Below, piece after piece: positions 7,312 to 37,161 of a DNA stretch of 64,000 nt. Made by a program: the position numbers and the translations under genes. The notes below the pieces were generated by a model. That model had not been told where the DNA came from and did no database searches. It worked only from the letters and a program-made list of their open reading frames with translations. Every line of letters starts with the position of its first letter. Position 1 is the first letter of the stretch. The DNA comes from Lachnospiraceae bacterium oral taxon 096 (lineage in GTDB: Bacteria; Bacillota; Clostridia; Lachnospirales; Lachnospiraceae): NCBI GenBank assembly GCA_018141845.1, contig CP073340.1, positions 1,079,001 to 1,143,000 on the forward strand, given 5' to 3'.

Positions 7312-7346
7312 ACAAATATAACAAGTAGATAAACGGAGGTGAGTGA

Positions 7347-9950: not shown

Positions 9951-9970
9951 ATATAGATGAATAAAAGTCA

Positions 9971-10009
9971 AAAAGCGAAATTTTTCCCAGTGGGAGAGAT
10001 TTCGCTTTT
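9971..10009 (+). terminator. Terminator of clpB
   Basis: AAAAGCGAAAT pairs perfectly with ATTTCGCTTTT; inward pairs (two G-T) and CCC-AGT-GGG extend the hairpin to about 18 bp. The symmetric A-run and T-run mean it could work on both strands. Confidence 0.75.
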
Positions 10010-10010
10010 G

Positions 10011-10019
10011 TGCTATAAT
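10011..10019 (+). promoter_or_regulatory. Extended -10 promoter upstream of cls
   Basis: TGCTATAAT is a perfect extended -10 element, 38 bases before the cls start. No good -35 hexamer is present, because the terminator stem occupies that position. Confidence 0.6.
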
Positions 10020-10056
10020 AAGTATCCGAAATAAGAGGAAAGGATAGAAATGGTGA

Positions 10057-17625: not shown

Positions 17626-18602
17626 TGAAAATACTAACTATAGTAATTCCAATGTATAATGTGCAAGAATATATTGAACAATGTCTTCAATCCTTTGTTA
17701 TTCCGGAAATTATGAATAAGATTGAGGTATTGGTGATCGATGATGGATCAAAGGACAATTCAGCAAATATTGCAAAAAGATATGAAGAGATCTATCCAGA
17801 AGCTTATCGAGTGATTCATAAGGAGAATGGTGGTCATGGATCAACAATTAATATAGGAATTAGTGAGGCAATGGGAAACTATATTAAGGTTGTGGATGGT
17901 GATGACTGGGTAGAACAACAAGGATTTAGAGATTTAGTGTGTTACTTAGAAAGTACAACAGTGGATCTTGTGATGAGTCAGTATTGTTGGGTGGATCATA
18001 AAACAATGAAAAAATCGTGGGAGGTAGATAGACTTTGCAAAAGGGCAGAGTTTGAAAAGGTTTATCTTTCGGAAGATATTCTGGCAGATTCGTTTTTAAA
18101 GATGCATGCAATGACCTTTAAGACAAGTATACTCAAGAATATGCCGGAACGATTGGATGAGCATTGTTTTTATGTGGACACAGAATATATGATTTTTCCA
18201 TTACCCTATGTCAATACAGTGAGTTTTGTTGACGCAAATGTCTATATGTATCGCATAGGAATGGATACACAGAGCATGAATCTTTTAAATATGCAAAAAA
18301 GATGTGATCAGCATGAGAAAGTGCTACAAAGGTTATTGATTTATTGCAGTGCACACAGGGGAAATATCAATGAGCGGGCAATGATTGCAGCTGTAGCAAG
18401 AGTGGTAACTAGTCAATATAAAATATATTTGAGTTTTGGTCACAGTCGAAAAAAAGCTATGATACAGATGGACCTTATGCTAAAGCACAATTATAAAAAG
18501 ATTTACGATGCAGTGCAAAATCAAGCAGTGTGTTGGATACGTAGGAGTAGATATTGTTTATTTGATGTGGCAGCATTTGCTGTAAGAAGGAGTATAAAGT
18601 AG
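17625..18602 (+). CDS. Family 2 glycosyltransferase
   Basis: GT-A fold transferase, 325 residues, cytosolic face. The start ILTIVIPMYNVQEYIEQCL and VLVIDDGSKDNS are the nucleotide-binding parts of GT2; the metal-binding motif is VDGDDW with Asp at 91, 93 and 94. GGGAGAGG precedes the ATG, which overlaps the previous stop (TAATG). The sugar donor is unknown. The C-terminal 60 residues are basic, which may help membrane association. By position it should add an early sugar after the priming transferase. Confidence 0.87.
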   Translation: MKILTIVIPMYNVQEYIEQCLQSFVIPEIMNKIEVLVIDDGSKDNSANIAKRYEEIYPEAYRVIHKENGGHGSTINIGISEAMGNYIKVVDGDDWVEQQGFRDLVCYLESTTVDLVMSQYCWVDHKTMKKSWEVDRLCKRAEFEKVYLSEDILADSFLKMHAMTFKTSILKNMPERLDEHCFYVDTEYMIFPLPYVNTVSFVDANVYMYRIGMDTQSMNLLNMQKRCDQHEKVLQRLLIYCSAHRGNINERAMIAAVARVVTSQYKIYLSFGHSRKKAMIQMDLMLKHNYKKIYDAVQNQAVCWIRRSRYCLFDVAAFAVRRSIK

Positions 18603-20347
18603 TGAAAATACAGTCAATTCTTTATCCAATGGGAGAAATCTGTACAGAGCAGTCAATGTACTACAGAGATGTTGGAGAGTGTCGTATATTTAATACTTAT
18701 TTTAATCTTTTTTCAGTGGCAAAGTGGAAAAAATATACAGATATCACTCAAATTAAGTTAGTATTTGAAGCTAGAGGTGTCCGAGAAGTCTGCATATATG
18801 ATCTTCATGGAATTGTCTATAGGAAGCGAATTGTAGAGAAAAATCAACAAAGGGGAGAGATTTTACTTAATCTTACAGATTTATATGAGATCGCTTGGGT
18901 GAGTATTGTAAAGGAACGAGGGATAGAGCCCTATTTTCAAGCTAGTTTTCAAAGTGTCGAAGAACCCAAACGAAATATAAAAATTTGTCTCGATATTTGT
19001 ACTTATCACAGGGAAGCATTTTTGGAGAAAAATCTCTATATTCTTGAAGAAGAAATTTTTTCGGATGAAGAGAATGAGGATCATTTTAAGGTCTATGTTG
19101 TTGACAATGCCAATTCTTTGCAAATAAGAGAAAGAGGATGGTTAAGCGTATTTGCGAATAAGAATCTTGGAGGAAGTGGGGGATTTACAAGGGGAATTAT
19201 TGAGGCACAGAGAAATAGGGAAGCAGAAGGATTTACCCATGTACTTCTTATGGATGACGATATTGTTCTTGAACCTGATGCATTGATTCGTTCCTATGGA
19301 ATTTTATCTTATTTAAAAGAGGAATATAAAGATATTTCTATTGCTGGAGCAATGCTTAGAGAAGATTATCGATATATAGAAAATGCAGCAGGTGAACGAT
19401 GGTACAATGGGAAATTAATCAATCCAAAGCAAGGACTTGATCTGCGGGATTTTCGGCAGTGTATTCGCAATGAAGTTGAGGAAAATGTAAATTATGCAGG
19501 GTGGTGGTATTGTTGTATTTCCTTGGAGGTAGCTACTAAGGAGAATCTTCCACTGCCTATGTTTATTCATCTTGATGATGTGGAATATGGATTGAGAAAT
19601 TGCCAATATGGTTTTATTTATCTCAATGGTATTTGTGTTTGGCATGGTGTGGGTGAACATAAAAAAACGTCAATTTATGAGTACTATGAACTTCGAAATA
19701 ATTTGCTATTACGTGCTATACATAGAGATGGTGCGAGTAAGAGAAAGCTACAAAAAGTAGTGATAAAGAGAATGATTCATTCAGTACTATATTATCGCTA
19801 TCAAGATGTAAAGCTAAATTACATGGCAGTGAAAGATTTTTGCAGAGGAATAGAAGCCTTAGCACAGCAGGATGGGGAGCGCTTACATCAGATGATACTA
19901 GAGATGGGGTATCATTCTTTGCCAGTAGAATGTTGCACTAACAATAGAAAACTAATTCAATATGTTCAACATTTCCCTAAAGTTACAAATGAATATCAAT
20001 TGTATCAAAAGTGGAACACAAAGTTTGGATTGCGAGAAAAATTGACTTTCAATGGGTGGATAATTCCATCTAGGAGTGGTATAATTTCAGCGTTACCGTT
20101 TGGGGTGGCAGCAAATCGGTTGTACCGTGTAAAAAAAGTATTCTTTTTTGATCCAGAGACTAAAAAGGGATTTATCACAAGAAAGAGTTATCTAGGCCTA
20201 TTCAAAAGTTTAATGTATATGATCAGAGCCGTTTTACAGCTTGAGCAAAGTCAAAAGGTTATAGATGAGTATTGTAGTCGTAAAGCGATATTGACCAGCG
20301 AGAAATTTTGGAAAAGATATCTAGGAGAAGAAGAATGTCAAAGTTAA
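18602..20347 (+). CDS. GlfT2-like galactofuranosyltransferase, first paralogue
   Basis: Large GT2-type transferase, 581 residues, resembling mycobacterial GlfT2, which polymerises galactofuranose from UDP-Galf. An N-terminal beta-rich domain (about 1-125, with FNTYFNLFSVAKWKKYT) precedes the GT-A domain, which begins ICLDICTYHRE; NKNLGGSGGFTRGI follows, and the metal motif is MDDD (217-220). Downstream are WWYCCISL and the HLDDVEYGLR catalytic segment, then the conserved VWHGVGEHK. A GTG start overlaps the previous TAG. A second paralogue lies on the other side of the exporter genes, and glf is at 36 kb, which supports the Galf assignment. Confidence 0.82.
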   Translation: MKIQSILYPMGEICTEQSMYYRDVGECRIFNTYFNLFSVAKWKKYTDITQIKLVFEARGVREVCIYDLHGIVYRKRIVEKNQQRGEILLNLTDLYEIAWVSIVKERGIEPYFQASFQSVEEPKRNIKICLDICTYHREAFLEKNLYILEEEIFSDEENEDHFKVYVVDNANSLQIRERGWLSVFANKNLGGSGGFTRGIIEAQRNREAEGFTHVLLMDDDIVLEPDALIRSYGILSYLKEEYKDISIAGAMLREDYRYIENAAGERWYNGKLINPKQGLDLRDFRQCIRNEVEENVNYAGWWYCCISLEVATKENLPLPMFIHLDDVEYGLRNCQYGFIYLNGICVWHGVGEHKKTSIYEYYELRNNLLLRAIHRDGASKRKLQKVVIKRMIHSVLYYRYQDVKLNYMAVKDFCRGIEALAQQDGERLHQMILEMGYHSLPVECCTNNRKLIQYVQHFPKVTNEYQLYQKWNTKFGLREKLTFNGWIIPSRSGIISALPFGVAANRLYRVKKVFFFDPETKKGFITRKSYLGLFKSLMYMIRAVLQLEQSQKVIDEYCSRKAILTSEKFWKRYLGEEECQS

Positions 20348-21881: not shown

Positions 21882-21904
21882 AGGTGAAAATAGGAGGATT
21901 GGGA

Positions 21905-23755
21905 ATGCGATTTAAATTACAGGATATTCTTTGGCCAAAGGCGGGATTGTGTGGAGAAAAACTTTTGTATTATCGATTGGGAAAAAATCCTGTACATGAT
22001 GTATGGACATTAGAGCATGCAGATAAGAGTGCAGATACAGGAGTAAGAAAGCTCGGAGATTGTGGTCTTCTCTTTAAAGAGGATGGTGTAGCATCTTTTG
22101 ATACCTATTTTAATGGCTTTTCAATTGAAAAATGGAAGAAGTACACTATACTTGATCAACTATTTTTAGATTTAAAAATCAAGGGAAAGTTTCGAGTTAC
22201 ATTATATTCTAAGCAAAAATTGGTGGATGATTTGCTTGAAAAACCAATTTTTGAGACAATCATTGAGGCAAAGAATGACGAAGTAAGAACAATTTTATTT
22301 CCAGAAGCCTATACTGTGGGTATGCTCTGCTTTGAACTTACTGCATTAGAGGATGGTTCATGTTTTTATGGTGGCGAATTTTATACAGAAGTTGAAGAAG
22401 AAAAGATTCGCAATGTTAAGATTGCTATTGGTATCTGTACTTTTAAGAGAGAGGCGTATGTCACAAAAAATATTGGCATCTTAAATGAGCATATTATTGA
22501 AAATCAGAATTCAGATTTGAATGGACATCTTGAAGTTTTTGCCTCAGACAATGGGCAGACCTTAGACATTGATCAGTTGTCTTCAGAGAAAATTCACATT
22601 GTAAAGAATAAAAATACTGGTGGAGCTGGTGGATTTACAAGATGTATGATTGAGGCAAGTCGTGCTAATGAGAAGGGAATGGGGATTACCCATATGCTCT
22701 TGATGGATGATGACATTGTGATTGATCCAGAGTCTATTGTGAAAACATACAAAATTTTATCCTTGCTAAAGGAAGAGTATAAGGATTCCTTTATTGGTGG
22801 AGCAATGCTTCGCATCGACAAACAATATTCTCAAGTGGAATCAGGAGCTGTTTGGAATGCGGGAAGACTTGAGCCACTAAAGATGGGACTTGATATGCGA
22901 ATGCTAATGGATTGCATTTACAATGAGTGGGAGGAGTACAGAGAGTATAATGCTTGGTGGTATTGCTGTTTTCCAATGGACATTGTAAGATCAGATAATC
23001 TTCCTATGCCAATTTTTATTCGAGGTGATGACTTAGAGTATGGTCTTAGAAATATGAAGAATTTAATTTTGATGAATGGAATTTGTGTATGGCACGAGCC
23101 ATTTGAAAATAAATATTCTTCATTCCTTGAGTACTATATTATCCGAAATAAATTGATTGACAATTCTATGCACTGTCCTTGGTATGGAAAAAATGATTTA
23201 AAGAAGGATATGTTTAAAGCAATCACAAGAGAGATTGTATATTACCGCTATAAAAATGTTGATTTAATTCTTCGTGGCGTGGCTGATTTCTTAAAGGGTG
23301 TGGATTGGCTGTTAAAGTCAGATGGTGAAAAGCTTCATAAGGAGATTATGGCGGCAGGGTATAAGGCCGAGCCGTTGGAAAATTTAGATGTTCCATTTTC
23401 CTATCCAGAGTATGACAAGGAAAGACATAAAAAGAGTTCACCAATAAATAAGTTAAAGAGGATATTGACGCTCAATGGTTATCTTTTAAGAACAAGGGGA
23501 AATGTAGTTACTTCGATGTCTTCTATCCGCCCGATTAATGCCTATAGAGCAAAAAAGATTCTACAATATGATGTGACATCAAAAAAAGCCTTTGTTACAG
23601 AGAAGGACAATAAAAAGTTATTAGAGTGCTATGCAAAGATGAATTATATGTTCAGAGAAATTGATAAGCGCTATGATACAGCAAAAAAGAGTTATCAAAG
23701 TCGATGCAAGGAAGTGCAGAATATTGAATTCTGGGAAAGGTACCTAGGATTGTAA
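21905..23755 (+). CDS. GlfT2-like galactofuranosyltransferase, second paralogue
   Basis: Same architecture as the gene at 18602: N-terminal beta domain with FDTYFNGFSIEKWKKYT, GT-A domain beginning IAIGICTFKREAYVTKN, the loop NKNTGGAGGFTRCM, metal motif MDDD (267-270), WWYCCFPM, then IRGDDLEYGLR and the HEPFENKYSSFLEYY segment. It has 616 residues, slightly longer than the first copy. ATG 21905 is chosen because GGAGG lies 7 bases upstream; a GTG at 21884 is less likely. In GlfT systems two enzymes split initiation and polymerisation, which may be the case here. Confidence 0.82.
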   Translation: MRFKLQDILWPKAGLCGEKLLYYRLGKNPVHDVWTLEHADKSADTGVRKLGDCGLLFKEDGVASFDTYFNGFSIEKWKKYTILDQLFLDLKIKGKFRVTLYSKQKLVDDLLEKPIFETIIEAKNDEVRTILFPEAYTVGMLCFELTALEDGSCFYGGEFYTEVEEEKIRNVKIAIGICTFKREAYVTKNIGILNEHIIENQNSDLNGHLEVFASDNGQTLDIDQLSSEKIHIVKNKNTGGAGGFTRCMIEASRANEKGMGITHMLLMDDDIVIDPESIVKTYKILSLLKEEYKDSFIGGAMLRIDKQYSQVESGAVWNAGRLEPLKMGLDMRMLMDCIYNEWEEYREYNAWWYCCFPMDIVRSDNLPMPIFIRGDDLEYGLRNMKNLILMNGICVWHEPFENKYSSFLEYYIIRNKLIDNSMHCPWYGKNDLKKDMFKAITREIVYYRYKNVDLILRGVADFLKGVDWLLKSDGEKLHKEIMAAGYKAEPLENLDVPFSYPEYDKERHKKSSPINKLKRILTLNGYLLRTRGNVVTSMSSIRPINAYRAKKILQYDVTSKKAFVTEKDNKKLLECYAKMNYMFREIDKRYDTAKKSYQSRCKEVQNIEFWERYLGL

Positions 23756-25474: not shown

Positions 25475-26602
25475 ATGATTAATTTTAATGTACCACCATT
25501 CGTGGGTCCAGAGTTAGATGCAGTAAAGAAGGCAATTGAAAACCATAAGATTTGTGGTGATGGAGAATTTACTAAAAAGTGTAATGCGTGGTTGGAGGAA
25601 AGAACTTCTTCTTCAAAAGTATTGTTGACAACTTCTTGCACGCATGCGACAGAAATGGCTGCTTTGCTTGGCAATATTCAGCCAGGGGATGAAGTGATTA
25701 TGCCTTCCTATACTTTTGTATCGACAGCAGATGCCTTTGTACTTCGTGGAGCTAAGGTAGTATTTGTGGATATTCGTCCAGATACTATGAATATGGATGA
25801 ATATCTCATTGAGGATGCTATTACAGAAAAGACAAGAGCGATTGTTCCGGTGCATTATGCTGGTGTAGCATGTGAGATGGACAAAATTATGGAGATTGCA
25901 AAGAAGTATCATTTGCTTGTCATCGAAGATGCCGCACAGGGAATTATGAGCACATATAAAGGAAAGGCACTTGGTGCTATTGGTGATTATGGATGTTTTA
26001 GTTTCCATGAAACAAAGAATTATTCTATGGGAGAGGGTGGAGCACTTCTTATCAGAGACCCAGAAAATATAGAAAGAGCAGAGATTATACGAGAAAAGGG
26101 AACAAACAGAAGTAAGTTTTTCCGTGGACAGATTGATAAATATACTTGGGTAGATGCAGGATCTTCCTATCTTCCGAGTGAGATGAATGCAGCCTATTTG
26201 TATGCAGAACTTGAGGTGGCTGATGAAATTAATCAAAATCGAATGGACAGTTGGAATAGATACTACAAAGGACTTAAGGAGTTAGAGGATGCTGGAAAGA
26301 TAAATCTTCCAGTTATTCCAGAGAATTGTCTACACAATGCACATATGTTTTACTTTAAGGCTAAGGATTTGGCAGAAAGAACAGCATTTATTTCATTTAT
26401 GCGTGAAAATGAGATTGGTTGTGTATTCCATTATATTCCATTGCATTCTGCACCAGCTGGAAAAAAGTTTGGAAGATTTCATGGAGAAGATCGCTACACG
26501 ACAAAAGAGAGCGAACGATTAGTGCGTTTACCAATGTATTATAATTTGAAACTTGAGGATCAGCAAAAGGTGATTGATAAAATAAAGGAGTTCTATCGCT
26601 AA
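25475..26602 (+). CDS. wecE: DegT/DnrJ/EryC1 aminotransferase, WecE-like (dTDP-4-amino-4,6-dideoxygalactose transaminase)
   Basis: PLP-dependent sugar aminotransferase of 375 residues. By similarity to WecE/RffA it would convert dTDP-4-keto-6-deoxy-D-glucose to dTDP-Fuc4N with glutamate as amino donor. Visible features are [18 protein letters not shown] at the start, [14 protein letters not shown], the EDAAQG cofactor segment and the Schiff-base lysine K181 in [25 protein letters not shown] precedes the ATG. It overlaps rfbA by one base; an N-acetyltransferase resembling WecD is 2.5 kb on. The needed dehydratase rfbB is not in the window. Confidence 0.88.
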
Positions 26603-27504
26603 TGAAGGGAATTATACTTGCAGGTGGAGCAGGAACAAGATTGTATCCACTTACTTTAGTAACATCCAAACAGTTATTGCCAGTTTATGATAAGCCAATG
26701 ATTTATTATCCATTATCTACATTGATGTTGGCAGGAATAAAAGATATTTTGATTATTTCTACACCAGAAGATACACCACGATTTAAAGAACTATTACAAG
26801 ATGGGTCACAATTTGGTATTCATTTGTCCTATGCAGTACAACCTACACCTGATGGACTTGCTCAAGCCTTTATTATTGGTGAGGAATTTATTGGAGATGA
26901 TTGCTGTGCGATGGTGCTTGGAGATAATATCTTTTATGGAAATGGATTTGCTTCAATATTACAGCAGGCTGCAAAGGGAGCTAAGGAGGGAAGCGCAACA
27001 GTTTTCGGTTATTATGTAGAGGATCCAGAAAGATTTGGCATTGTTGAATTTGATTCAAGTGGTAAAGTGGTTTCACTTGAAGAAAAGCCAGAGGAGCCAA
27101 AGAGCAATTATGCAATTACGGGAGTTTATTTCTATCCAAAGGGAGTGGCAAAGAAGGCGAAGCAAGTAAAGCCCTCAGCTAGAGGTGAACTTGAAATTAC
27201 AACACTAAATTCAATGTATCTTGATGAAGAGACATTAAAGGTTCAATTACTTGGAAGAGGCTTTGCATGGTTGGATACAGGAACAATGGAAAGTCTTTTA
27301 GAAGCTTCAGAGTTTGTCAGTATGGTGGAGCAACGCCAAGGAATTATGATTTCAGCTCCTGAGGAGATTGCTTATCGCCATGGTTGGATTAGTCGTGAAG
27401 AATTAGAGATTGCTGCAAGGCGATATGGAAAATCACCATATGGAAAGTATTTGCAAAAAGTTGCTGATGGTAAAGTTTTAAGTTCTAGTATGAGGGGAGA
27501 ATAG
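26602..27504 (+). CDS. rfbA: Glucose-1-phosphate thymidylyltransferase
   Basis: Makes dTDP-glucose from glucose-1-phosphate and dTTP. The 300-residue protein is full length, with the signature [17 protein letters not shown] at the N-terminus, the [18 protein letters not shown] segment, [10 protein letters not shown] and the LGDNIFYG metal-binding motif. The start ATG overlaps the wecE stop. Together with wecE it supplies a dTDP-amino sugar rather than rhamnose: rfbC and rfbD are absent here. Confidence 0.95.
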
Positions 27505-27508
27505 ATAG

Positions 27509-27853
27509 TTGCAAAAATTAAAAGTGTTTGTGCAGCTACATATATTACTCTTTATCTATTCTCTAGGTGCGGTTTGCTCAAAAATTGCAGGAACACAAAG
27601 TTTTTTATCGGTAAAGTTTATTATTTTTTATGGCTTGGTTCTTATCGATTTGTTTGCCTATGCATTATTTTGGCAACAAATTTTGAAAAAGTTGCCATTA
27701 GTCACAGCTTATGCAAATAAAGCCATCACAGTTGTTTGGGGATTGTTATGGGGAATGTTAGTTTTTAAAGAAAAGATTACGGTATTTAATGTAGTTGGGG
27801 CATTGGTTATTATTTTTGGAATATATATGGTGGTGGCAGCAGATGAACATTGA
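27509..27853 (+). CDS. Small DMT-superfamily membrane protein, ArnE-like flippase subunit
   Basis: Four-helix protein of 114 residues of the EamA/SMR type. The start is a TTG at 27509 with AGGGGAGA 9 bases upstream. Its helix 3-4 region (VTAYANKAITVVWGLLWGMLVFKEKITVFNVVG, read as two parts) matches the drug/metabolite transporter signature. It overlaps a second four-helix protein, so the pair is probably a heterodimer like ArnE/ArnF, which flips undecaprenyl-phosphate-aminoarabinose. The next gene is an ArnC-like transferase, which supports a lipid-linked-sugar flippase role. The substrate is inferred. Confidence 0.75.
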   Translation: MQKLKVFVQLHILLFIYSLGAVCSKIAGTQSFLSVKFIIFYGLVLIDLFAYALFWQQILKKLPLVTAYANKAITVVWGLLWGMLVFKEKITVFNVVGALVIIFGIYMVVAADEH

Positions 27854-28187
27854 TATTCGATATATAGGGCTATTTTTATTTTCAGTATTCATCTCTTCGG
27901 TATCACAGGTGATTTTAAAAAAGAGTGCCAATCGAACATATGCAAGTAAATTACAGGAGTATTTAAATATTCCTGTAATGCTTGCGTATGCTTTGTTTTT
28001 TGGCTCGTCACTGTTAACGGTACTTGCGTATAAGTTTGTGCCGCTGTCAATGGGACCAATATTGGAAGCAAGTGGATATGTATATGTTGCAGTATTGGGA
28101 GCTCTATTTTTAAATGAAAAATTGAGCACAAAAAAAGTAATAGGTATGGCGGCAATTATTTTAGGAATTGTTCTCTTTAACATATAA
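27843..28187 (+). CDS. Small DMT-superfamily membrane protein, ArnF-like flippase subunit
   Basis: Second four-helix EamA/SMR-type protein, 114 residues, starting at ATG 27843 inside the last codons of the previous gene (11-base overlap). An ORF start at 27795 would overlap much further and is not used. Features include VSQVILKKSAN in helix 1, YALFFGSSLLTVLAYKFVPL in helix 2, and the end segment LNEKLSTKKVIGMAAII typical of SMR-like proteins. Equal length and overlap with its neighbour suggest a heterodimeric flippase. Confidence 0.77.
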   Translation: MNIDIRYIGLFLFSVFISSVSQVILKKSANRTYASKLQEYLNIPVMLAYALFFGSSLLTVLAYKFVPLSMGPILEASGYVYVAVLGALFLNEKLSTKKVIGMAAIILGIVLFNI

Positions 28188-28217
28188 ATTTATAGGGAAT
28201 AGAGAGGAGAAGGAAAA

Positions 28218-29141
28218 ATGAAAATTTCATTTGTTATTCCTTGTTATCGTTCTCAGAAAACTTTGGCAGGTGTTATTCGTGAAGTTCAGGAAACGATGGC
28301 TACTCTTAATGGGTATACATATGAGATCATCTTAGTAAATGATGCGTCACCAGATGACACATTTAGTGAGATTAGAAGATTGTGCAAGGAAAATGATAAT
28401 ATTATTGGCATTGATATGGCAAAGAATTTTGGTCAACATTCTGCATTGATGGCTGGATTTCATGAGGTTAGTGGTGAAGTTGTCGTTTGCCTTGATGATG
28501 ATGGACAGACACCGGCAAATGAAGTTGGAAAGTTGCTAGATAAGATTAATGAAGGATATGATGTGGTGTATGCAGAGTATTCCAACAAAAAGCATTCAAA
28601 GTTTAGAAATTTGGGTAGTCATCTCAACAGTGTTATGACAGAGCATCTTTTGGAAAAGCCTAAAGACTTATATATATCAAGTTATTTTGCAGCACGGAAA
28701 TTTATTATTGATGAGATCTTAAGATATGACAATGCATATCCGTATGTTACAGGATTAGTACTTAGAACCACAAGAAAAATATGTAATGTAGAGGTAAGAC
28801 ATCGAGAGAGGGAAGTTGGGGAGTCGGGTTATTCGTTGAGTAAGCTATTGGGGCTTTGGCTCAATGGGTTTACCTCTTTTTCTGTGAAACCATTGCGTTT
28901 AGCAACATTTAGTGGATTGTTTGCAGCATTTTTAGGTCTTTTATTTATTATTGTCACAGTAATTCGAAGGCTAGTTGATCAAAGTATTCCTATTGGATGG
29001 AGTTCGACAATTTCAATTATTTTATTAATGGGCGGAATGATTTTGTTTGTTTTAGGAATTATTGGTGAATATATTGGACGTATTTACATCTGTATCAATC
29101 ATTCTCCACAATATGTAATTCGTGAGAAGATTAAACATTAG
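28218..29141 (+). CDS. Polyprenyl-phosphate glycosyltransferase (ArnC / GtrB / DPMS type)
   Basis: GT2 enzyme that transfers a sugar from a nucleotide donor to polyprenyl phosphate. The 307-residue protein has SFVIPCYRSQKTLAGVI at the start, VNDASPDDTF, the metal motif LDDDGQTP (Asp 93-95), and two C-terminal membrane helices (about 228-250 and 263-287), the hallmark of ArnC/GtrB. GGAGAAGG lies ahead of the ATG. The two small flippase genes precede it, the order expected for making and flipping a polyprenyl-P-sugar. The donor is probably the dTDP-amino sugar made by the adjacent genes. Confidence 0.87.
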   Translation: MKISFVIPCYRSQKTLAGVIREVQETMATLNGYTYEIILVNDASPDDTFSEIRRLCKENDNIIGIDMAKNFGQHSALMAGFHEVSGEVVVCLDDDGQTPANEVGKLLDKINEGYDVVYAEYSNKKHSKFRNLGSHLNSVMTEHLLEKPKDLYISSYFAARKFIIDEILRYDNAYPYVTGLVLRTTRKICNVEVRHREREVGESGYSLSKLLGLWLNGFTSFSVKPLRLATFSGLFAAFLGLLFIIVTVIRRLVDQSIPIGWSSTISIILLMGGMILFVLGIIGEYIGRIYICINHSPQYVIREKIKH

Positions 29142-29157
29142 GAAGAGGGTGGGGAAT

Positions 29158-29895
29158 ATGGAAAAAATTGAGCAACCATGGGAGAAGAAAAATCTAGGTG
29201 TCCACAGTGTTGAATTTCGTTTTGATGGAACAGAAAGCATAGAGAAAATAGGAAGAGAGATTCTGGGAGAGATAAATTTTGATTACCAATTGTGCAGGGT
29301 GCCTGTTGGACGAATGGATATTGTGTATCTTCTACAAGATCATGGTTTTCGATTTGCAGAGACAAGTTTTGAGTTATCTGCAGATTTAAAAAATCTTGCT
29401 TTGCCAAAGGCATATGAAAGATATGAAGAGTATATTTGCTATCGTAAAATTGAAGATGGGGAAGAAGAGAAGGTATATGAGGCAATCCGTCAGGGAATAT
29501 TTGACACGGATAAGGTGTATTTAGATCCTTTTTTTAAAAAAGAGCAATCAGGCATTCGTTTTGCTAATTGGTGCCAACAGGAAATTGAGTCGGGAAAATC
29601 TACTTGCTATATTGTAGAAAATAATGGTATGGAGATTGGATTCTTTCTCTTAAAAGAAATTTCGAATAAAGTTTCTGATTCATTACTGGCAGGATTGTAT
29701 GATGCTAAAAAGAGTCTTGGACTTGGATTTTCTGTTTTGTATTATCCAATGCTAAAGGCAAAGGAAGATGGAAAGAAGAGAATTATTGCAGCAGTATCTT
29801 CTAATAATCCAGCATCCTTAAGAATGCATTTGGAGTTGGGATATAAAGTTAAAAATATGAGTTATGTATTGGTTAAGCATATTAAAAAGGAATAA
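29158..29895 (+). CDS. GNAT N-acetyltransferase, WecD-like
   Basis: 245-residue protein with a C-terminal GNAT fold. The layout resembles WecD/RffC, which acetylates dTDP-Fuc4N with acetyl-CoA: an N-terminal part with PWEKKNLGVHSVEF and LLQDHGFRFAETSFEL, a middle DPFFKKEQSGIRFANWCQQE, then the acetyl-CoA fold with GFFLLKE, a GLYDAKKSLGLGFSVLYYPML beta-alpha unit and a final NNPASLRMHLELGYKV motif. ATG 29158 has GGGTGGGG upstream; ORF start 29122 overlaps the previous gene and is rejected. The presence of wecE and rfbA supports an amino-sugar substrate. Confidence 0.7.
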   Translation: MEKIEQPWEKKNLGVHSVEFRFDGTESIEKIGREILGEINFDYQLCRVPVGRMDIVYLLQDHGFRFAETSFELSADLKNLALPKAYERYEEYICYRKIEDGEEEKVYEAIRQGIFDTDKVYLDPFFKKEQSGIRFANWCQQEIESGKSTCYIVENNGMEIGFFLLKEISNKVSDSLLAGLYDAKKSLGLGFSVLYYPMLKAKEDGKKRIIAAVSSNNPASLRMHLELGYKVKNMSYVLVKHIKKE

Positions 29896-29915
29896 GAAGT
29901 TTTTGGGGGAAGATA

Positions 29916-31334
29916 ATGGCAATCACAAGTACCATTTTTCTATTTGTGTTCTTACCAGTTGCTTTAGGAGTTTTCTACATTGCAGATGATAGGGCTAAAG
30001 AATATATTTTAGTGGCATTGAGTTTATTTTTTTATGCTGTTGGGTCCTTAAAATATTTTGAATTATTTGTAGTAGCTGTATGCATTACTGTAGTGTTAGG
30101 AAGACTGATTGCAAGAGCAAAAGAGAAGAAATTGAAAAAGGTTCTAGTTACAGTAGGAGTACTGGTTAATCTTTCGATTTTAATCTATTATAAGTATATG
30201 GATTTTGCAATTTCTACAATTAATGATTTAGCTGGCTCTACATTAGCACTAAGAAATTTAGCTTTACCATTAGGAATTTCTTTTTTTACATTTAAAGCAA
30301 TTTCTTATTTATGTGATGTATATAGTGAAAAGGTGAAATTAGATCATGAACCAGTGAGAGATGTACTGTATCTATCGTTTTTCGGACAAGTTCTATCTGG
30401 ACCATTAGCAAGGTTTGGAGATTTCAAGAATACTTTTATAGGGACTGAAGAAAAGAATCACCTATTTAGTGATGGAGTGTTTCGCTTTTTAATTGGATTT
30501 AATAAAAAAGTTTTATTAGCAAATGTATTAGCTAATATTACAAATGAAGTTTATTCTACAGATTTTTCATTATTTACACCAGCTTTTGCATGGTTAGGGG
30601 CTATTTGCTATTCATTACAACTTTTTTTTGATTTTGCAGGATATTCTGATATGGCGATTGGACTCTCAGAAATGTTTGGCTATCATTGTATGGAAAATTT
30701 TAATTATCCATATATGACAGAATCTGTAGCAAAGTTTTGGAGAAGATGGCATATTTCATTGAGCCAGTGGTTTAGAGACTATATTTATATTCCATTAGGC
30801 GGATCTCGAACAAAGAGCAAAGGTCGAGTGTATATTAATATGTTGGCTGTATGGTTAGCAACAGGGATATGGCATGGAGCAGCATGGAATTTTGTTGTTT
30901 GGGGATTAGGATTTTTCATTTTAATTGCATTTGAGAAAGTGACAGGTTTTCCAGATACCTTTAAATCAAAGGGAATGAAGATTGCATATCGCATTTTCAC
31001 CTTGTTCTTTATCAATTTCGAATGGGTAATATTTAGGGCAAAAGATTTAAAGACAGCTGTAATTTATATACAAAATATGTTTATGTTCCAAAAACATACG
31101 ATTTCTGACTTAAGAACTATGTTTATAATTAAAGATTACTTTTGGATTATTTTATTTGCTATTGTATTATCATTCCCAGTAGTGCCAAATTTGAGAAAAA
31201 GGTTTGAGGGAAAAGAGGAACTTTGTAGGATTTATGATGCAGTTATTGGAATTTTAGTCATTGTGTTATTTATATGGGCGATTACATTTGCAGTTGTTGG
31301 ACAAAATAATCCGTTTGCTTATGCAAATTTCTAG
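29916..31334 (+). CDS. MBOAT-family O-acyltransferase (AlgI/DltB-like)
   Basis: Polytopic membrane acyltransferase, 472 residues, about 11 hydrophobic segments, that passes an acyl group across the membrane to a surface polymer. The active-site region is GIWHGAAWNFVVWG with the conserved His at 320, preceded by KFWRRWHISLSQWFRDYIYIPLGG, the usual MBOAT signature. GGGGGAAG precedes the ATG. A DHHW protein, an FkbH-like enzyme and an acyl carrier protein follow within 3 kb. That composition resembles dlt (DltB-DltC-DltD), so the acyl donor may be the carrier protein rather than acetyl-CoA. Confidence 0.9.
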   Translation: MAITSTIFLFVFLPVALGVFYIADDRAKEYILVALSLFFYAVGSLKYFELFVVAVCITVVLGRLIARAKEKKLKKVLVTVGVLVNLSILIYYKYMDFAISTINDLAGSTLALRNLALPLGISFFTFKAISYLCDVYSEKVKLDHEPVRDVLYLSFFGQVLSGPLARFGDFKNTFIGTEEKNHLFSDGVFRFLIGFNKKVLLANVLANITNEVYSTDFSLFTPAFAWLGAICYSLQLFFDFAGYSDMAIGLSEMFGYHCMENFNYPYMTESVAKFWRRWHISLSQWFRDYIYIPLGGSRTKSKGRVYINMLAVWLATGIWHGAAWNFVVWGLGFFILIAFEKVTGFPDTFKSKGMKIAYRIFTLFFINFEWVIFRAKDLKTAVIYIQNMFMFQKHTISDLRTMFIIKDYFWIILFAIVLSFPVVPNLRKRFEGKEELCRIYDAVIGILVIVLFIWAITFAVVGQNNPFAYANF

Positions 31335-31344
31335 GAGAAAGATA

Positions 31345-32526
31345 ATGGAAAAATGGAATACAAAAAAGGCCATGTCTAGTCTATTTGTACTTGGACTGGG
31401 GATAGCATTTATTCGTTCAGGTGGCTATAGTACAATACAAAAAATTGCAGATGCAGCTGTTCACAAGGATGTCAATATTAATGCTATAGATTCTGATTTT
31501 ACAAGCAATTTGTGGATACAGCATGAACTTATTGATATTAATGGAATTATGGAAAAGTTAATGGGAATGCGTGGATATTACAGCAACATGGGTATGTATG
31601 TTGCAAAAGGAAACTACATTGTTTCTTCATCTCCGGAAACTTCTACAGATTATGAATATAATCAAATAAGTGCGTTAGCTGATTTTTTGAAAGAGCATGA
31701 TATTCATTTGCTTTATGTTAATGAGCCAACAAAGTATGTGGATGATAATTTCTTTAAGGAAAATTTTGGTGTTGATTCTTTTAGCAATCGGAATATGGAC
31801 AAATTTCTTGGAAGAATTAGAGAAAAAGGCATACCGACGATTGACTTGAGAGAAAATATTAGAGAAGAAGGATTGAATATCAAAGATTTCTTTTATAGAA
31901 CAGATCATCATTGGACTACAAAGGCAACGCTATGGGCAGTGAAAATTATAGCGGATGGTCTTAATAAATATTGTGGCTATTCTATTGACACTTCTATATA
32001 TAATGTAGATAATTATGACATGGTTGAGTATAAAAAGGCTTGGTTGGGAGAACAAGGGAGAAAAGTTTCTGGAGCATATGTTGGACTAGATGATTTTACA
32101 GAAATTAAACCAAAGTTTGAGACGAGTTATACTTTTAAATTTCCAGATGGAAATAAAGATGGAACATTTGATATGTTTGTAAATGAAGCTTTATATGATA
32201 AAAAATCGAATGTTTACTCGGTAGGAAGTTGGCATTATTCTTATAATCGTCTTAATTGCATTAATCATAATGTTAATTATGGAAAGGTTTTGCTCCTTGG
32301 AGATTCCTACGAACAGACGACAGAGCCCTTTTTATCTTTAGGGATAAAGGAAGTCGATAGTCTAGTTATGCGTGAAGTTGATGACTCATTTGATTTGAAG
32401 CAGTATATATTGGATAATCATTATGATACTGTAATTATTGCTTATGCACAATTCATGGTGGGGGCACATGATGATTCAACATCCGCAAATTATAAGATGT
32501 TTTCTTTTGATAAAAGCATTCAATAG
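31345..32526 (+). CDS. DHHW-family protein (AlgX/AlgJ-like O-acyltransferase partner)
   Basis: 393-residue secreted or membrane-anchored protein: one N-terminal hydrophobic segment (about 10-25) followed by an SGNH-hydrolase-like domain. The catalytic DHHW motif is TDHHWT with Asp 187, His 188 and His 189, and LLLGDSYEQTT supplies the Ser. AlgX/AlgJ take acyl groups from an MBOAT partner and place them on a polymer. ATG 31345 has AGGAG just upstream and follows the MBOAT stop by 10 bases; the longer ORF from 31261 would run inside the MBOAT gene. C-terminal ends match the family. Confidence 0.85.
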   Translation: MEKWNTKKAMSSLFVLGLGIAFIRSGGYSTIQKIADAAVHKDVNINAIDSDFTSNLWIQHELIDINGIMEKLMGMRGYYSNMGMYVAKGNYIVSSSPETSTDYEYNQISALADFLKEHDIHLLYVNEPTKYVDDNFFKENFGVDSFSNRNMDKFLGRIREKGIPTIDLRENIREEGLNIKDFFYRTDHHWTTKATLWAVKIIADGLNKYCGYSIDTSIYNVDNYDMVEYKKAWLGEQGRKVSGAYVGLDDFTEIKPKFETSYTFKFPDGNKDGTFDMFVNEALYDKKSNVYSVGSWHYSYNRLNCINHNVNYGKVLLLGDSYEQTTEPFLSLGIKEVDSLVMREVDDSFDLKQYILDNHYDTVIIAYAQFMVGAHDDSTSANYKMFSFDKSIQ

Positions 32527-32543
32527 GCAGAAAGGAAGGAATT

Positions 32544-34268
32544 ATGTATTCGTTTAATGAACTGAGAAAAGCAGCGAAGCAGGTTGTGGAAGGTAAAGAA
32601 GTGAGAGTGGCCATCCTTGGAAATTGTGCGACACAGTTTTTTGCAAAGTCACTTCTAGGTTATGCGAAGCTTTCAGGAATTAATGCCAATGTGTTTGATG
32701 CAGATTATAATCAAATTGAGGCACAACTTTTAGATGTGGATTCAGAATTATATCATTTTTCACCTGATACAATCGTATTGTGGCTGGCAACAGAGAAATT
32801 GTATGAAGAGTTCTTAGATATGCCATTGTCAAATAGGGCACATTTTGCTGATATTTACATTGAAAAAATTAGAGGATATTGGGAACTTATTGAGAAAAAT
32901 TCAAAAGCCAAAGTTATCCAAATGAATTTTACTGAGATTGACGACAAGGTTTTGGGAGAATATTCAGCAAAAGTGGACATTAGCTTTATTTATCAGATAA
33001 GAAAGTTGAATTTTTTACTGGAAGAGGCTATGAGAAGTGATGCAAATGTTTATCCTGTAGACTTGTTGGCAATACAAATTCGGATTGGAGCAAAGAATTT
33101 CTTTGACGCACCGATGTATTATAGTGCAAAATTGAGTGCTTCGATGAATGCACTGCCTTATATTACAAAGGCAGTTGTTGATGTGCAGAAGTCTATTCTT
33201 GGAAAAATAAAGAAGTGTATTATTCTTGATTTAGACAATACTCTTTGGGGCGGTGTCATTGGAGATGATGGAATTGGCGGAATTGAAATTGGTGAATTGG
33301 GCAAAGGGCATGTGTTCACGAATTTTCAGCGTTGGTTAAAGCAATTAAAAGAAGCAGGAATTATTTTGGCAGTATGCAGTAAGAACACAGAGTCTGTAGC
33401 AAAAGAGCCATTTGAAAAAAATGAAGAGATGGTTTTGCATTTAGATGATATTTCTGTGTTTGTTGCAAACTGGGAGGACAAGGCAACCAATATTAAGTTG
33501 ATTCAGGAGACTTTGAATATTGGTATGGATTCTATTGTATTTGTGGATGATAATCCATTTGAGAGAAATCTAGTTCGCCAAATGATTAAGGATATTGAGG
33601 TGCCAGAGTTACCAGAAGATCCAGCACTTTATTTAGGCTATCTTCAGGAGTGTAATTACTTTGATTGTGCATCCTATGTGGGAGTAAAGTCAGATAGAAC
33701 AAAGCTTTATCAGGCCGAATTTCAAAGAAAACAGTTACAGGTTCAGTATCAGTCAATAGATGATTATTTAAAGAGCTTGGAAATGATTGGCAAGGCTGAA
33801 AAGTTTATGCCAGAAAATTATGCTCGAATTGCACAGTTGACTCAACGCTCAAATCAATTTAATTTGAGAACAATGAGATATTCAGAAGCTGATATTCAGG
33901 CCATTGCAGAGAATGAAAAATTTTTGACGATGTCTTTGCATTTAAAGGATAAGTTTGGAGATCATGGTTTAGTTTCTGTGGTGATTTTAGAAAAGAAAAA
34001 TGAACAAGAAGTTTTTGTAGATACTTGGTTGATGAGCTGTCGTGTGTTGAAACGAGGTATGGAGGAGTATGTTGTTAACAAGATTGTTAAGTTAGCAAGA
34101 GCGCATGGATTTAAGAAAATTACTGCAGAATACATTCCTACTCCAAAGAACGCTATGGTAGAGAAGATTTATGAAAAGATGGGATTTACTAATGTGGGAG
34201 AAAATAATTACGCATTAGATGTGGACAGCTATAAAGATCAAGTAAGTTATATTAATGAGGAGGAGTAA
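32544..34268 (+). CDS. FkbH-like HAD-IIIC protein with GNAT-like C-terminus
   Basis: 574-residue cytosolic protein. N-terminal domain about 1-220, then a HAD-IIIC phosphatase domain with DLDNTLWGG (nucleophile Asp 229, Asp 231) and the VDDNPFERNLVR motif, then a GNAT-like domain with MSCRVLKRGMEEYVV and ending in KIYEKMGFTNVGE. Characterised FkbH proteins take the glyceryl group from 1,3-bisphosphoglycerate, dephosphorylate it and load it on an acyl carrier protein. The very next gene encodes such a carrier, so it is the obvious partner. GGAAGGAATT precedes the ATG. The exact acyl group here is inferred. Confidence 0.88.
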   Translation: MYSFNELRKAAKQVVEGKEVRVAILGNCATQFFAKSLLGYAKLSGINANVFDADYNQIEAQLLDVDSELYHFSPDTIVLWLATEKLYEEFLDMPLSNRAHFADIYIEKIRGYWELIEKNSKAKVIQMNFTEIDDKVLGEYSAKVDISFIYQIRKLNFLLEEAMRSDANVYPVDLLAIQIRIGAKNFFDAPMYYSAKLSASMNALPYITKAVVDVQKSILGKIKKCIILDLDNTLWGGVIGDDGIGGIEIGELGKGHVFTNFQRWLKQLKEAGIILAVCSKNTESVAKEPFEKNEEMVLHLDDISVFVANWEDKATNIKLIQETLNIGMDSIVFVDDNPFERNLVRQMIKDIEVPELPEDPALYLGYLQECNYFDCASYVGVKSDRTKLYQAEFQRKQLQVQYQSIDDYLKSLEMIGKAEKFMPENYARIAQLTQRSNQFNLRTMRYSEADIQAIAENEKFLTMSLHLKDKFGDHGLVSVVILEKKNEQEVFVDTWLMSCRVLKRGMEEYVVNKIVKLARAHGFKKITAEYIPTPKNAMVEKIYEKMGFTNVGENNYALDVDSYKDQVSYINEEE

Positions 34269-34269
34269 G

Positions 34270-34512
34270 ATGACAAGAGAAGAAGCTTTTGAAAGGGTAG
34301 TGGATATTTGTAGGGATGTATTTGAAAATGATGATTTGGAATTAAATGATGAGTCAAATGCAAATACAGTGGATGAGTGGGACAGCTTGACTCATTTGAA
34401 CTTAATTAACGATATTGAGGAAGAGTTTAAGATGAAGTTCACCCTTGATGAATTTTCAAATAGTGCAAATCTTGGAGAATTGGTAGATGCCTTGATGAAG
34501 CATCTTAACTAA
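34270..34512 (+). CDS. Dedicated acyl carrier protein
   Basis: 80-residue acidic protein with the phosphopantetheine attachment Ser 39 in DEWDSLTHLNLI, and the helical layout of ACP/PCP domains. ATG 34270 is chosen, preceded by GAGGAGGAG, one base after the FkbH stop; the ORF start at 34255 overlaps that gene. It is not the fatty-acid ACP: no fab genes are nearby and it is coupled to FkbH. It probably carries the acyl group later used by the MBOAT/DHHW pair. A terminator follows. Confidence 0.9.
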   Translation: MTREEAFERVVDICRDVFENDDLELNDESNANTVDEWDSLTHLNLINDIEEEFKMKFTLDEFSNSANLGELVDALMKHLN

Positions 34513-34535: not shown

Positions 34536-34582
34536 CAATAAATACTCTAGCTATGGTTATAGTCGGGGTATTTATTGGTTTT
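34536..34582 (+). terminator. Intrinsic terminator-like hairpin after the acyl carrier gene
   Basis: CAATAAATAC (34536-34545) pairs with GTATTTATTG (34568-34577) and the stem continues inward with G-T pairs and a second small stem; GGTTTT follows. The next gene starts 17 bases later, so termination may be partial and divide the operon. Confidence 0.65.
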
Positions 34583-34598
34583 AGGGAGTTTGGATAAA

Positions 34599-36044
34599 AT
34601 GAAAGCTAAGGGTTATTCAAGGAAGGCGATAGTTGTATTTTGCTTATTAGTTTTTGCGTTCTTTTTCTCACTACAAGATGTGACTTCAATCTTTAGTCAC
34701 AGAGTGAATTATAGTGACAGTGGGGTGTATCAATATATTGGAAGTTCTTTGTTGCGTGGTGAAGTGCTTTACAGAGATAATTTTGATCACTTTGGACCAG
34801 TACTATATATAATTAATGCGCTGGGGTTTGCTATTGCTAAGATTCATGGAGTATGGCTGATTGATTTTTTGGCTATGTTTATTATTGAATTATTGGGATA
34901 TAAAATTACAGAACATTTTTTAAAGGAAAAGTTGGCACTAATTGTGAGCGTGAGTGTGCTGTCTGGTTTGAGTTGGGCATTTTGGATTGGAAATACACCT
35001 GATTATCTTGGCTTAGCCTTTATCTTAGGATTTGTCTATTGTAGTATAGATTTATATATTGAAAAAGAGCTAAGTAAGACGAGACTTGCTCTTTTGGGGC
35101 TTTTGTTTACATTGGTTTTTTGGACAAAACAGGCACTTGTTTTTGGAATATTTCTATTTTACATTTGGGGAGTAATCCAATATTGGAAAAAAAATAAAAA
35201 ATTAATGTTGACTCAAATTTTTATTCCTGGTGGAGTTTGGGCTGTGTTGTCAGGAATAATTTTGGTGTGGCTAAAGGGTGTACATGGAGCCTATGATATG
35301 ATCCAACAGTACTTTAAGTTTACTTGGCAGGGATTTAAGGTGGATGTATTGCATAGTCATATTTTTGGAACATTTTGGTTCTTTTTTAATCGTCCAGATA
35401 TTCTTTTACTTTTCTATTTTATAATCGTTTATATTGTTATAGAAGTGTTCTCGAGAGAGAGTAAGGAATCTAAGGAGAAAGATTTACTAAAGACAGTATT
35501 AGTGATTTTAGTTTTGCAAATGTTTTTTGTTGCATTACCTGGAAGAAAATATGTGCAATATAGTAGTGTTTACTATGTATGGCTTTTACTTGCTTATACA
35601 TTAATTGTTCAACGAGTAGTGAAAGGATCAATTAAAATTGTAGCAGCGGTGCTCGTATTTATTTTGCTTGTTCCAAATGGAGTCATTGCCTACCGCAGTC
35701 AAGTGTCAAACTGGAAAGATGTAGGAAAAAGTCAAGAGGTCGTCGCTTTTATTCGTGATAATACAGCTGAGGGAAGCAAAATTGCTGTTGCTTCTCCAGA
35801 TCATGCAGGGTATTATTTGGCATCAAAGAGAAACTCTGCTACGAAGTATCCATATATTCATCCATCAATGTTTGACCATGAAGATGGAATTTGGAAGGAA
35901 TATCGAAAGGAATTGGAAGAAAAGAATGTGGAGGCCATTGTGTGGTTTGATCAGCAAGATATCCATCGCTATTTACCCAATATTGAAAATAATTATCAGT
36001 TCGCATATACTGGTGATGGAGTGACAATTTATTTAAGAAAATAA
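34599..36044 (+). CDS. GT-C membrane glycosyltransferase (GT39 / ArnT-like)
   Basis: 481-residue integral membrane protein with about 11 hydrophobic segments and a C-terminal soluble part of about 100 residues. After the first helix, NYSDSGVYQYIGSSLLRGEVLYRDNFDHFGP shows the acidic motif and the YRD/DHxGP signature of transferases that use polyprenyl-phosphate sugars outside the membrane (read here as two adjoining motifs). ATG 34599 has AGGGAG 10 bases upstream; TTG codons at 34575 and 34590 are alternatives. With the ArnC-like and flippase genes it completes a side-sugar addition route. Confidence 0.8.
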   Translation: MKAKGYSRKAIVVFCLLVFAFFFSLQDVTSIFSHRVNYSDSGVYQYIGSSLLRGEVLYRDNFDHFGPVLYIINALGFAIAKIHGVWLIDFLAMFIIELLGYKITEHFLKEKLALIVSVSVLSGLSWAFWIGNTPDYLGLAFILGFVYCSIDLYIEKELSKTRLALLGLLFTLVFWTKQALVFGIFLFYIWGVIQYWKKNKKLMLTQIFIPGGVWAVLSGIILVWLKGVHGAYDMIQQYFKFTWQGFKVDVLHSHIFGTFWFFFNRPDILLLFYFIIVYIVIEVFSRESKESKEKDLLKTVLVILVLQMFFVALPGRKYVQYSSVYYVWLLLAYTLIVQRVVKGSIKIVAAVLVFILLVPNGVIAYRSQVSNWKDVGKSQEVVAFIRDNTAEGSKIAVASPDHAGYYLASKRNSATKYPYIHPSMFDHEDGIWKEYRKELEEKNVEAIVWFDQQDIHRYLPNIENNYQFAYTGDGVTIYLRK

Positions 36045-36066: not shown

Positions 36067-37161
36067 ATGTACGATTATTTAGTCGTTGGTGCAGGATTGT
36101 TTGGAGCAATCTTTGCAAGAGAGGCAAAATTAAAGGGAAAATCAGTATTGGTCATTGACAAAAGACCAAATGTCGCTGGAAATGTTTATACAGAAGAAAT
36201 TGAGGGAATTAATGTACATCAATATGGAGCACATATTTTCCATACAAATAATCAGAGAGTGTGGGACTACATCAATCAATTTGCTCAATTTAATCGCTTT
36301 ACCAATGCACCAGTAGCAAATTATAAGGGAGAGATTTATTCCTTGCCTTTTAATATGTACACATTTAATAAGATGTGGGGCGTGGTGACTCCACAAGAAG
36401 CTGAGGCAAAGATTGAAGAGCAGAGAAAAGCAGCAGGTATTACTGAGCCAAAGAATCTTGAGGAACAGGCAATTAGCTTGGTGGGAACAGATATCTATGA
36501 AAAGCTCATTAAGGGTTATACAATGAAACAATGGGGTAGAGATTGCAAGGATCTGCCAGCATTTATTATTAAGAGATTACCTGTTCGATTGACTTATGAC
36601 AACAACTACTTTAATGCACTTTATCAGGGAATTCCAATGGGCGGCTATACAAAGATGGTCGAGAACATCCTAGAGGGTGTGGAAGTTAGATTAAATGTGG
36701 ACTACTTAGAGCACAGAGAGGAATTGGATGTATTGGCTAAAAAGGTGATCTACACAGGTCCAATTGATGCCTACTTCGATTATCAATTGGGAGCACTTGA
36801 GTATCGAAGTGTGAGATTTGAGACGGAAGTATTGGATATGCCAAACTTTCAGGGCAACGCGGCTGTCAATTATACGGACGCAGAATCACCTTATACAAGA
36901 ATTATTGAGCACAAGTGGTTTGAGTTTGGTACACAGCCAAAGACAGTGATTAGTAAGGAATATAGCTCGGAGTGGAAGCTTGGAGATGAGCCATATTATC
37001 CAGTTAATGATGAGAAAAATTCAAAGCTATATCAGCAATATAGAGATTTGGCTGAGAAGGAACAAAAGGTTCTATTTGGCGGAAGACTTGGAGAGTATAG
37101 ATATTATGATATGGATGCAGTGATTGATTCAGCACTGCGTTTTTGTGAGAAAAACTTATAA
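36067..37161 (+). CDS. glf: UDP-galactopyranose mutase
   Basis: Flavoenzyme that interconverts UDP-galactopyranose and UDP-galactofuranose. 364 residues, typical length. The FAD-binding N-terminus is YDYLVVGAGLFGAIFA, followed by DKRPNVAGNVYTE, YGAHIFHTN and FNMYTF; PDAM-like arginines are in FIIKRLPVRLTYDNNYF; the end segment is LFGGRLGEYRYYDMDAVI. AGAAGGAGAC precedes the ATG. It supplies the donor for the two GlfT2-like enzymes 13-18 kb upstream in the same locus. Confidence 0.97.
   Translation: MYDYLVVGAGLFGAIFAREAKLKGKSVLVIDKRPNVAGNVYTEEIEGINVHQYGAHIFHTNNQRVWDYINQFAQFNRFTNAPVANYKGEIYSLPFNMYTFNKMWGVVTPQEAEAKIEEQRKAAGITEPKNLEEQAISLVGTDIYEKLIKGYTMKQWGRDCKDLPAFIIKRLPVRLTYDNNYFNALYQGIPMGGYTKMVENILEGVEVRLNVDYLEHREELDVLAKKVIYTGPIDAYFDYQLGALEYRSVRFETEVLDMPNFQGNAAVNYTDAESPYTRIIEHKWFEFGTQPKTVISKEYSSEWKLGDEPYYPVNDEKNSKLYQQYRDLAEKEQKVLFGGRLGEYRYYDMDAVIDSALRFCEKNL

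Follow-up and report, generated by a model that had tools for sequence, protein, structure and literature searches.

Two candidate acyltransferase partners for an FkbH-linked acyl carrier protein in a surface-glycan locus of Lachnospiraceae bacterium oral taxon 096

Parts of several described systems recur in a gene run of Lachnospiraceae bacterium oral taxon 096, in which an MBOAT acyltransferase, a DHHW protein, an FkbH enzyme and an acyl carrier protein (ACP) are encoded one after another in a glycan locus. The run lies within a 64,000-nucleotide stretch (CP073340.1, positions 1,079,001 to 1,143,000; hereafter the window) of a genome that is a single contig of 2.24 Mb. FkbH is known from the literature for glycerate units in polyketides and peptides; here and in many other genomes it is found next to an ACP in loci for surface glycans or membrane acyltransferases. 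Tetronate and methoxymalonyl-ACP systems such as that of tetromadurin resemble the window in combining FkbH with a small stand-alone ACP, but in the accessible part of PMC7489565 the product goes to a polyketide, whereas the window FkbH lies in a glycan locus with no polyketide synthase family among the proteins scanned. The suomilide/varlaxin aeruginosin clusters, as described in part of PMC10143770, likewise hold FkbH and MBOAT in one cluster, together with an ACP and in an aeruginosin-type peptide setting; there, however, FkbH is a peptide synthetase domain that loads glycerate into the peptide and the MBOAT is assigned to another step.

A second set of relatives comprises MBOAT enzymes with an SGNH-type partner. 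The PatAB and AlgI-AlgX O-acetyltransferases share with the window an MBOAT with a His and a C-terminal FxYxxF, next to an SGNH partner; PatA uses acetyl-CoA, and a carrier protein beside the pair is absent from the model in the accessible part of PMC12148441. The same part describes FxYxxF as an acyl-shuttle motif of PatA and DltX, and describes other MBOAT/SGNH pathways as being without a carrier protein like that of Dlt. The Dlt system itself (DltA, DltB, DltC, DltD, DltX) was the precedent for the initial annotation of the window, under which carrier, MBOAT and SGNH-type partner would be shared with it. Three points differ: the window MBOAT fails the DltB cut-off (169.3 bits against 375 required), the loader is FkbH rather than an adenylating enzyme, and the MBOAT carries the tail motif on its own chain. 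The gene run was rejected as a member of the Dlt family because the DltB cut-off was missed and no AMP-binding family (DltA-type adenylating loader) was matched among the 24 window proteins that were Pfam-scanned, between 13152 and 40498.

N-glyceroyl sugars and ACP-dependent N-acylation have both been published, separately. Part of PMC10609480 describes an N-glyceroyl amino sugar in the O-antigen of Pragia fontium, and part of PMC9912281 a 7-N-glyceroyl pseudaminic acid in Tannerella forsythia. For the O-polysaccharide of Flavobacterium psychrophilum, part of PMC6519341 predicts that a dedicated ACP (wfpD) and an N-acyltransferase (wfpG) serve to acylate a nucleotide-linked 4-amino-dideoxy sugar at its 4-amino group, which resembles the arrangement we propose below. 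In the wfp system, 3-ketoacyl-ACP synthases and a reductase are taken to build the acyl group, a PglD-like enzyme is the acyltransferase and the substrate is a UDP-sugar, whereas the window has a presumed FkbH loader, a WecD-like acyltransferase and a presumed dTDP-sugar. We found no account of FkbH in a glycan role, linked either to a GNAT or to an MBOAT, in open-access text under searches for FkbH or HAD-IIIC.

We lean, with modest confidence, towards the following reading: FkbH and ACP feed N-acylation of 4-amino-4,6-dideoxygalactose (Fuc4N) by a GNAT enzyme encoded just upstream, and the MBOAT and DHHW protein form a separate O-acyltransferase. We observe the following gene content and family assignments.

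25475..26602, + strand: WecE-type dTDP-4-amino-4,6-dideoxygalactose transaminase (NCBIfam PRK11706, 652.8 bits, cut-off 375)
26602..27504, + strand: RmlA-type glucose-1-phosphate nucleotidyltransferase (Pfam NTP_transferase, 6.3e-78)
27509..28187, + strand: SMR-type (ArnE/ArnF-like) small membrane protein pair, at 27509-27853 and 27795 or 27840-28187 (EamA just over cut-off; ArnE/ArnF matches under cut-off)
28218..29141, + strand: ArnC-like family-2 glycosyltransferase (PRK10714, 190.8 bits, under the 529 cut-off; Pfam GT2, 1.3e-26)
29122..29895, likely start 29158, + strand: WecD-like GNAT N-acyltransferase (PRK10975, 2.1e-9, 37.5 bits, under the 219 cut-off; no Pfam match)
29916..31334, + strand: MBOAT O-acyltransferase (Pfam MBOAT, 8.6e-26; WHG at residue 319; C-terminal FAYANF)
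31345 (ATG)..32526, + strand: DHHW/AlgX-type SGNH-like protein, partner of the MBOAT (Pfam ALGX, 5.7e-12; DHHW at residue 187; GDS at residue 319)
32544..34268, + strand: FkbH enzyme (FkbH_N, 2.8e-68; FkbH domain, 296.8 bits, cut-off 146.65)
34270 (or 34255)..34512, + strand: acyl carrier protein (Pfam PP-binding, 27 bits, cut-off 20.8)
34575..36044, + strand: GT-C-like membrane glycosyltransferase (weak LA_3751 family match, 19.7 bits, cut-off 200)

The MBOAT, DHHW protein, FkbH and ACP reading frames form one tight run on the + strand, as the initial annotation had it, and its family and motif assignments for the four genes agree with the Pfam/NCBIfam, PDB and motif results. With starts at 27840, 29158, 31345 and 34270, gaps from WecE through to ACP range from -14 to 30 bp (GNAT-MBOAT 20, MBOAT-DHHW 10, DHHW-FkbH 17 and FkbH-ACP 1 bp). 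A promoter and terminator scan told little, giving 66 promoter-like sites where 64.9 were expected and one terminator-like site where 5.4 were expected. The FAYANF tail of the MBOAT conforms to FxYxxF and its WHG His is present, as in MBOAT-SGNH pairs; the GDS and DHHW motifs and the ALGX match mark the adjacent protein as an SGNH/AlgX-type partner, and its PDB relatives are PatB1 and AlgX structures. FkbH bears its domain and the HAD motifs DLDNT, CSKN and DDNPFER expected of the loader, with 3slr as its PDB relative. Begun at 34270, the ACP, which directly adjoins FkbH, has the 80 residues and the attachment Ser39 (in WDSLTH) claimed for it previously, and it was the only ACP found by profile in the window. 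Its only PDB match at threshold was 2lml, GmACP3 of Geobacter metallireducens; the WDSLxH motif of GmACP3 is present in the window ACP.

The initial annotation held that nothing else nearby would explain the ACP. No polyketide or fatty-acid family was found among the scanned proteins, and such a role was set aside on that ground; the statement fails, however, in that a WecD-like acyltransferase abuts the MBOAT and WecE lies a short way upstream. That annotation had missed this GNAT, together with the ArnC-like transferase, SMR pair, RmlA and WecE. Because the GNAT lies directly upstream, the ACP has two candidate consumers, one cytoplasmic and one in the membrane. WecE is well over its cut-off and RmlB is encoded elsewhere in the genome (G000:C1:854972-855937, 505.3 bits against a cut-off of 365.1), so that the test for a dTDP-Fuc4N pathway was positive; the GNAT itself fell far short of the WecD acetyltransferase equivalog. 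An aminotransferase, an N-acyltransferase and a dedicated ACP thus occur in one locus in the window (25475-34512), and also in loci L178 and L033.

We infer which acyl group is involved, what each enzyme uses as donor and as acceptor, and in what order the steps run. RmlA, RmlB and WecE would make dTDP-4-amino-4,6-dideoxygalactose (dTDP-Fuc4N), and FkbH would transfer glyceryl from 1,3-bisphosphoglycerate to the dedicated ACP; glyceryl is proposed because of the FkbH chemistry described for polyketides in part of PMC7489565. The WecD-like GNAT would pass the acyl group from ACP to the 4-amino group of Fuc4N, the ArnC-like transferase would attach the resulting sugar to undecaprenyl phosphate, a possible flippase for the undecaprenyl-phosphate-linked sugar is the SMR pair, and the GT-C enzyme would add the flipped sugar to an exported polymer. 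Apart from this, the MBOAT and DHHW protein would form an O-acyltransferase of PatAB/AlgI type that probably draws on acetyl-CoA and moves the acyl group outward on the FAYANF tail.

Comparisons drew on several samples. FkbH relatives comprised 80 loci of named genomes (the best 80 of at least 537 relatives) plus regions fetched from further genomes. Among 299 family genomes, its own included, MBOAT matches at 1e-20 occurred in 277, FkbH matches at 1e-20 in 62 and GNAT matches at 1e-6 in 6; regions were fetched for 16 of the 61 non-self genomes with an FkbH match. Selecting loci by FkbH or by MBOAT biases the resulting set, and each frequency below belongs to its own source. For 101 non-window FkbH genes, a partner was counted as near when within 6 kb on the same strand, near-identical loci being partly kept. 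The MBOAT tree held 95 rows after removal of ten duplicates, with links counted on the same strand; for 20 of its DHHW-linked rows the flank covered was only about 1.5 kb.

The link from FkbH and ACP to the GNAT is seen in two further genomes. G433 (L178) has the order WecE-VOC-GNAT-FkbH-ACP-ArnC-SMR1-SMR2, with 58% (GNAT), 61% (FkbH), 61% (ACP) and 68% (WecE) identity to the window proteins, and no MBOAT or DHHW gene was found in its 20 kb; its ACP (7720-7974, from a profile search) was the closest to that of the window among those compared. G254 (L033) holds RmlA, WecE, ArnC, GNAT, the SMR pair, FkbH and ACP within 18.9 kb, in which no MBOAT was found. Relatives of the GNAT are rare (4 non-self in 397 family genomes at 1e-15, adding none to those of the 299-genome sample; 1 non-self in 299 phylum genomes at 1e-8). 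All five clear non-self GNAT stretches (18 to 20 kb) carry ACPs and a DegT-type aminotransferase, none carries an MBOAT and two carry FkbH. The other three (G541, G419 and G616; 27-35% identity) come from genomes without an FkbH match, and their GNAT lies near ACPs plus AMP ligase, SDR, transketolase-like or carboxyltransferase genes, some of them named by eye. G494, a very weak match (7.9e-8, 22%), was dropped as a sixth relative. L042 has FkbH-ACP-VOC and, after it, genes for a PglD-like acyltransferase and a DegT aminotransferase. In the best FkbH tree the window falls together with L178 and L042 at a support of 64/90, which is not strong, and a grouping of the window FkbH with that of the four-gene locus L190 was rejected (p-AU 0.0009).

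Other evidence favours a separate role for the MBOAT-DHHW pair. The nearest relatives of the window pair are in G361, G609 and G468 (MBOAT identity 58%, 54% and 51%); the window MBOAT groups with them in the tree, and none of these genomes has an FkbH match at 1e-20. The G361 and G468 stretches were read, with no ACP found and unrelated neighbours; since these sister pairs (L201, L181) are without an ACP on the stretch, acetyl-CoA (or another acyl-CoA) is the donor proposed for the window MBOAT. A DHHW gene adjoins the MBOAT in 29 of 29 non-self loci returned for the family sample, and FkbH lies within 10 kb in none of them (coordinates compared by eye; nearest 11 kb in G403 and 13 kb in G202). 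One group of 38 in the MBOAT tree takes in 36 of the 37 DHHW-linked rows, including the window; the 48 rows that are linked to FkbH and ACP without DHHW all fall outside it.

Several observations weigh against this assignment. Support for the FkbH clade is weak, the GNAT is joined with FkbH in only two loci outside the window, and in L039, L189 and L040, whose FkbH is closest by identity to that of the window, an MBOAT lies on the stretch as well. Reading of 16 non-self family FkbH loci showed an ACP in 15 and an MBOAT within 6 kb in 11 (two of these with DHHW); the GNAT occurs in only one, G433. In that genome an AT3-PGA_cap-GDSL fusion lies just downstream of the SMR genes and could be another consumer, making an O-acyl product. 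The MBOAT-DHHW pair of G609 (L180) lies 4.6 kb from an ACP with an AMP ligase, though it is also near a GNAT-like protein. Stand-alone four-gene loci show that this MBOAT clade can pair with FkbH-ACP, and the donor preference of a GNAT is not readable from its sequence.

The four-gene loci deserve attention in their own right. MBOAT-DHHW-FkbH-ACP occurs in that order in L190 (G400; 6772-11380), L081 (6843-12018) and L082 (6831-11980), and as FkbH-ACP-MBOAT-DHHW in L191 (G450; 5795-10962). Their MBOATs fall in the same tree group of 38 as that of the window, and the MBOAT clade is therefore able to pair with FkbH-ACP. Within that group L190/L191, L081/L082 and the window sit apart, and a single MBOAT clade of window, L190 and L191 was rejected (p-AU 2.4e-62); because of these three separate placements the four-gene set was probably assembled more than once, which points to a working link between MBOAT-DHHW and FkbH-ACP. 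With the profiles used, no DegT aminotransferase or relative of the window GNAT was found in the four loci, which makes them clean cases for carrier-driven O-acylation. By eye, the L190 cassette lies between RecG-like and Xaa-Pro peptidase/GltX-like genes and that of L191 between MetG/MurA-like and ClpP-like genes; L082 has a different GNAT, RimJ-like by eye, about 3 kb downstream. These loci stand alone, without detected amino-sugar genes.

A broader reading, which we hold only tentatively, is that MBOAT, DHHW, FkbH and ACP are the four parts of an acylation system driven by a carrier protein, doing with glycerate what teichoic acid D-alanylation does with D-alanine. It would have come together more than once, occur on its own in some genomes and, in the window, share its glyceryl-ACP with an amino-sugar N-acyltransferase. 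Such a system would need no DltX, because the MBOAT bears its own FxYxxF tail. The association of FkbH with MBOAT extends further: an MBOAT is near 53 of the 101 non-window FkbH genes, including those from records named Flavobacterium, Pedobacter, Paraburkholderia, Prevotella and Treponema.

The scheme first proposed for the window, in which FkbH makes glyceryl-ACP, the acyl group passes via the C-terminal Tyr of the MBOAT to the DHHW protein and on to a glycan ester in a Dlt-like manner without DltX, appears somewhat unlikely here; under it the GNAT would use acetyl-CoA. As a system elsewhere it is favoured by the four-gene loci, their probable repeated assembly and the frequency of MBOAT near FkbH (in the 101-gene and family samples alike), and the window MBOAT shares an F-x-Y-x-x-F tail with 43 of the 48 MBOATs linked to FkbH/ACP without DHHW. 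In the window it is the less likely route because the three nearest MBOAT-DHHW pairs are without FkbH and FkbH-ACP-GNAT occurs without MBOAT in G433 and G254 (L178 and L033); in addition, neither FkbH nor an ACP lies within 5 kb on the same strand in 30 of the DHHW-linked MBOAT rows, the 20 short-flanked rows being among them. The readings predict different bonds, an amide from the GNAT and an ester from the MBOAT. If FkbH-ACP feeds an N-acyltransferase, the locus offers a genetic route to N-glyceroyl sugars of published structure; if any MBOAT-SGNH pair is supplied by it, carrier-driven acylation extends beyond Dlt, and the FkbH-ACP-MBOAT loci are candidates against the statement, in the accessible part of PMC12148441, that such a carrier belongs to Dlt alone.

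That one pool of glyceryl-ACP serves both N-acylation of Fuc4N by the GNAT and external O-acylation by MBOAT-DHHW seems improbable. An MBOAT is near none of the 8 FkbH genes with a DegT aminotransferase and 53 of the 93 without one (Fisher p 0.0019, kinship ignored), so that the two consumers are nearly mutually exclusive elsewhere. Of the FkbH genes examined, that of the window alone has both nearby, and its MBOAT and DHHW genes are placed between those for GNAT and FkbH, separated by gaps of 10-20 bp, which would suit a shared pool; because both are present, exclusion alone does not tell which partner is used here. Least probable of all is another acyl group, such as lactyl, 3-hydroxypropionyl or O-methylglyceryl, made by FkbH and ACP with enzymes encoded elsewhere: in related loci FkbH-ACP is accompanied by genes for MaoC and SDR proteins, for a methyltransferase, for a VOC protein or for a 2-hydroxyacyl-CoA dehydratase set, but these families were unmatched among the scanned window proteins.

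Some further features of related loci were recorded. FkbH-ACP-MBOAT sets occur in several phyla (L054, L065, L067, L083, L110 and others), part of them with MaoC, SDR, VOC or methyltransferase genes, as if accessory genes varied the acyl group. Glyoxalase_4-type (VOC) proteins lie beside FkbH-ACP in both MBOAT and amino-sugar settings (L178:10572-11018, L042:11972-12382, L040:11978-12289) and are possible epimerases; the family was not matched in the scanned window set. L033 (4453-8674) and L039 (6798-10093) have a 2-hydroxyacyl-CoA dehydratase set beside FkbH-ACP, with HGD-D and GcvH in both; in L033 a BadF-type activator and LplA were confirmed too. The set may take a hydroxyl off glyceryl-ACP. 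A pyruvate dehydrogenase set was ruled out as the identity of these genes by Pfam, which gave the dehydratase set with GcvH and LplA. The AT3-PGA_cap-GDSL fusion of L178 (3070-6000, 976 residues) lies beside the amino-sugar cassette, and L180 (4165-11668) carries ACP, AMP ligase, GNAT-like, ArnC, thioesterase, MBOAT and DHHW genes, an AMP-ligase version of the window operon.

The rest of the window locus encodes an ABC-2 transporter pair, a bacterial sugar transferase, an O-antigen-ligase-like protein, a UDP-galactopyranose mutase and two Glft2_N-type transferases, one over and one under the cut-off. The latter two kinds of enzyme (18602-20347, 21884-23755 and 36067-37161), together with the ABC-2 exporter, suggest galactofuranose in the exported polymer.

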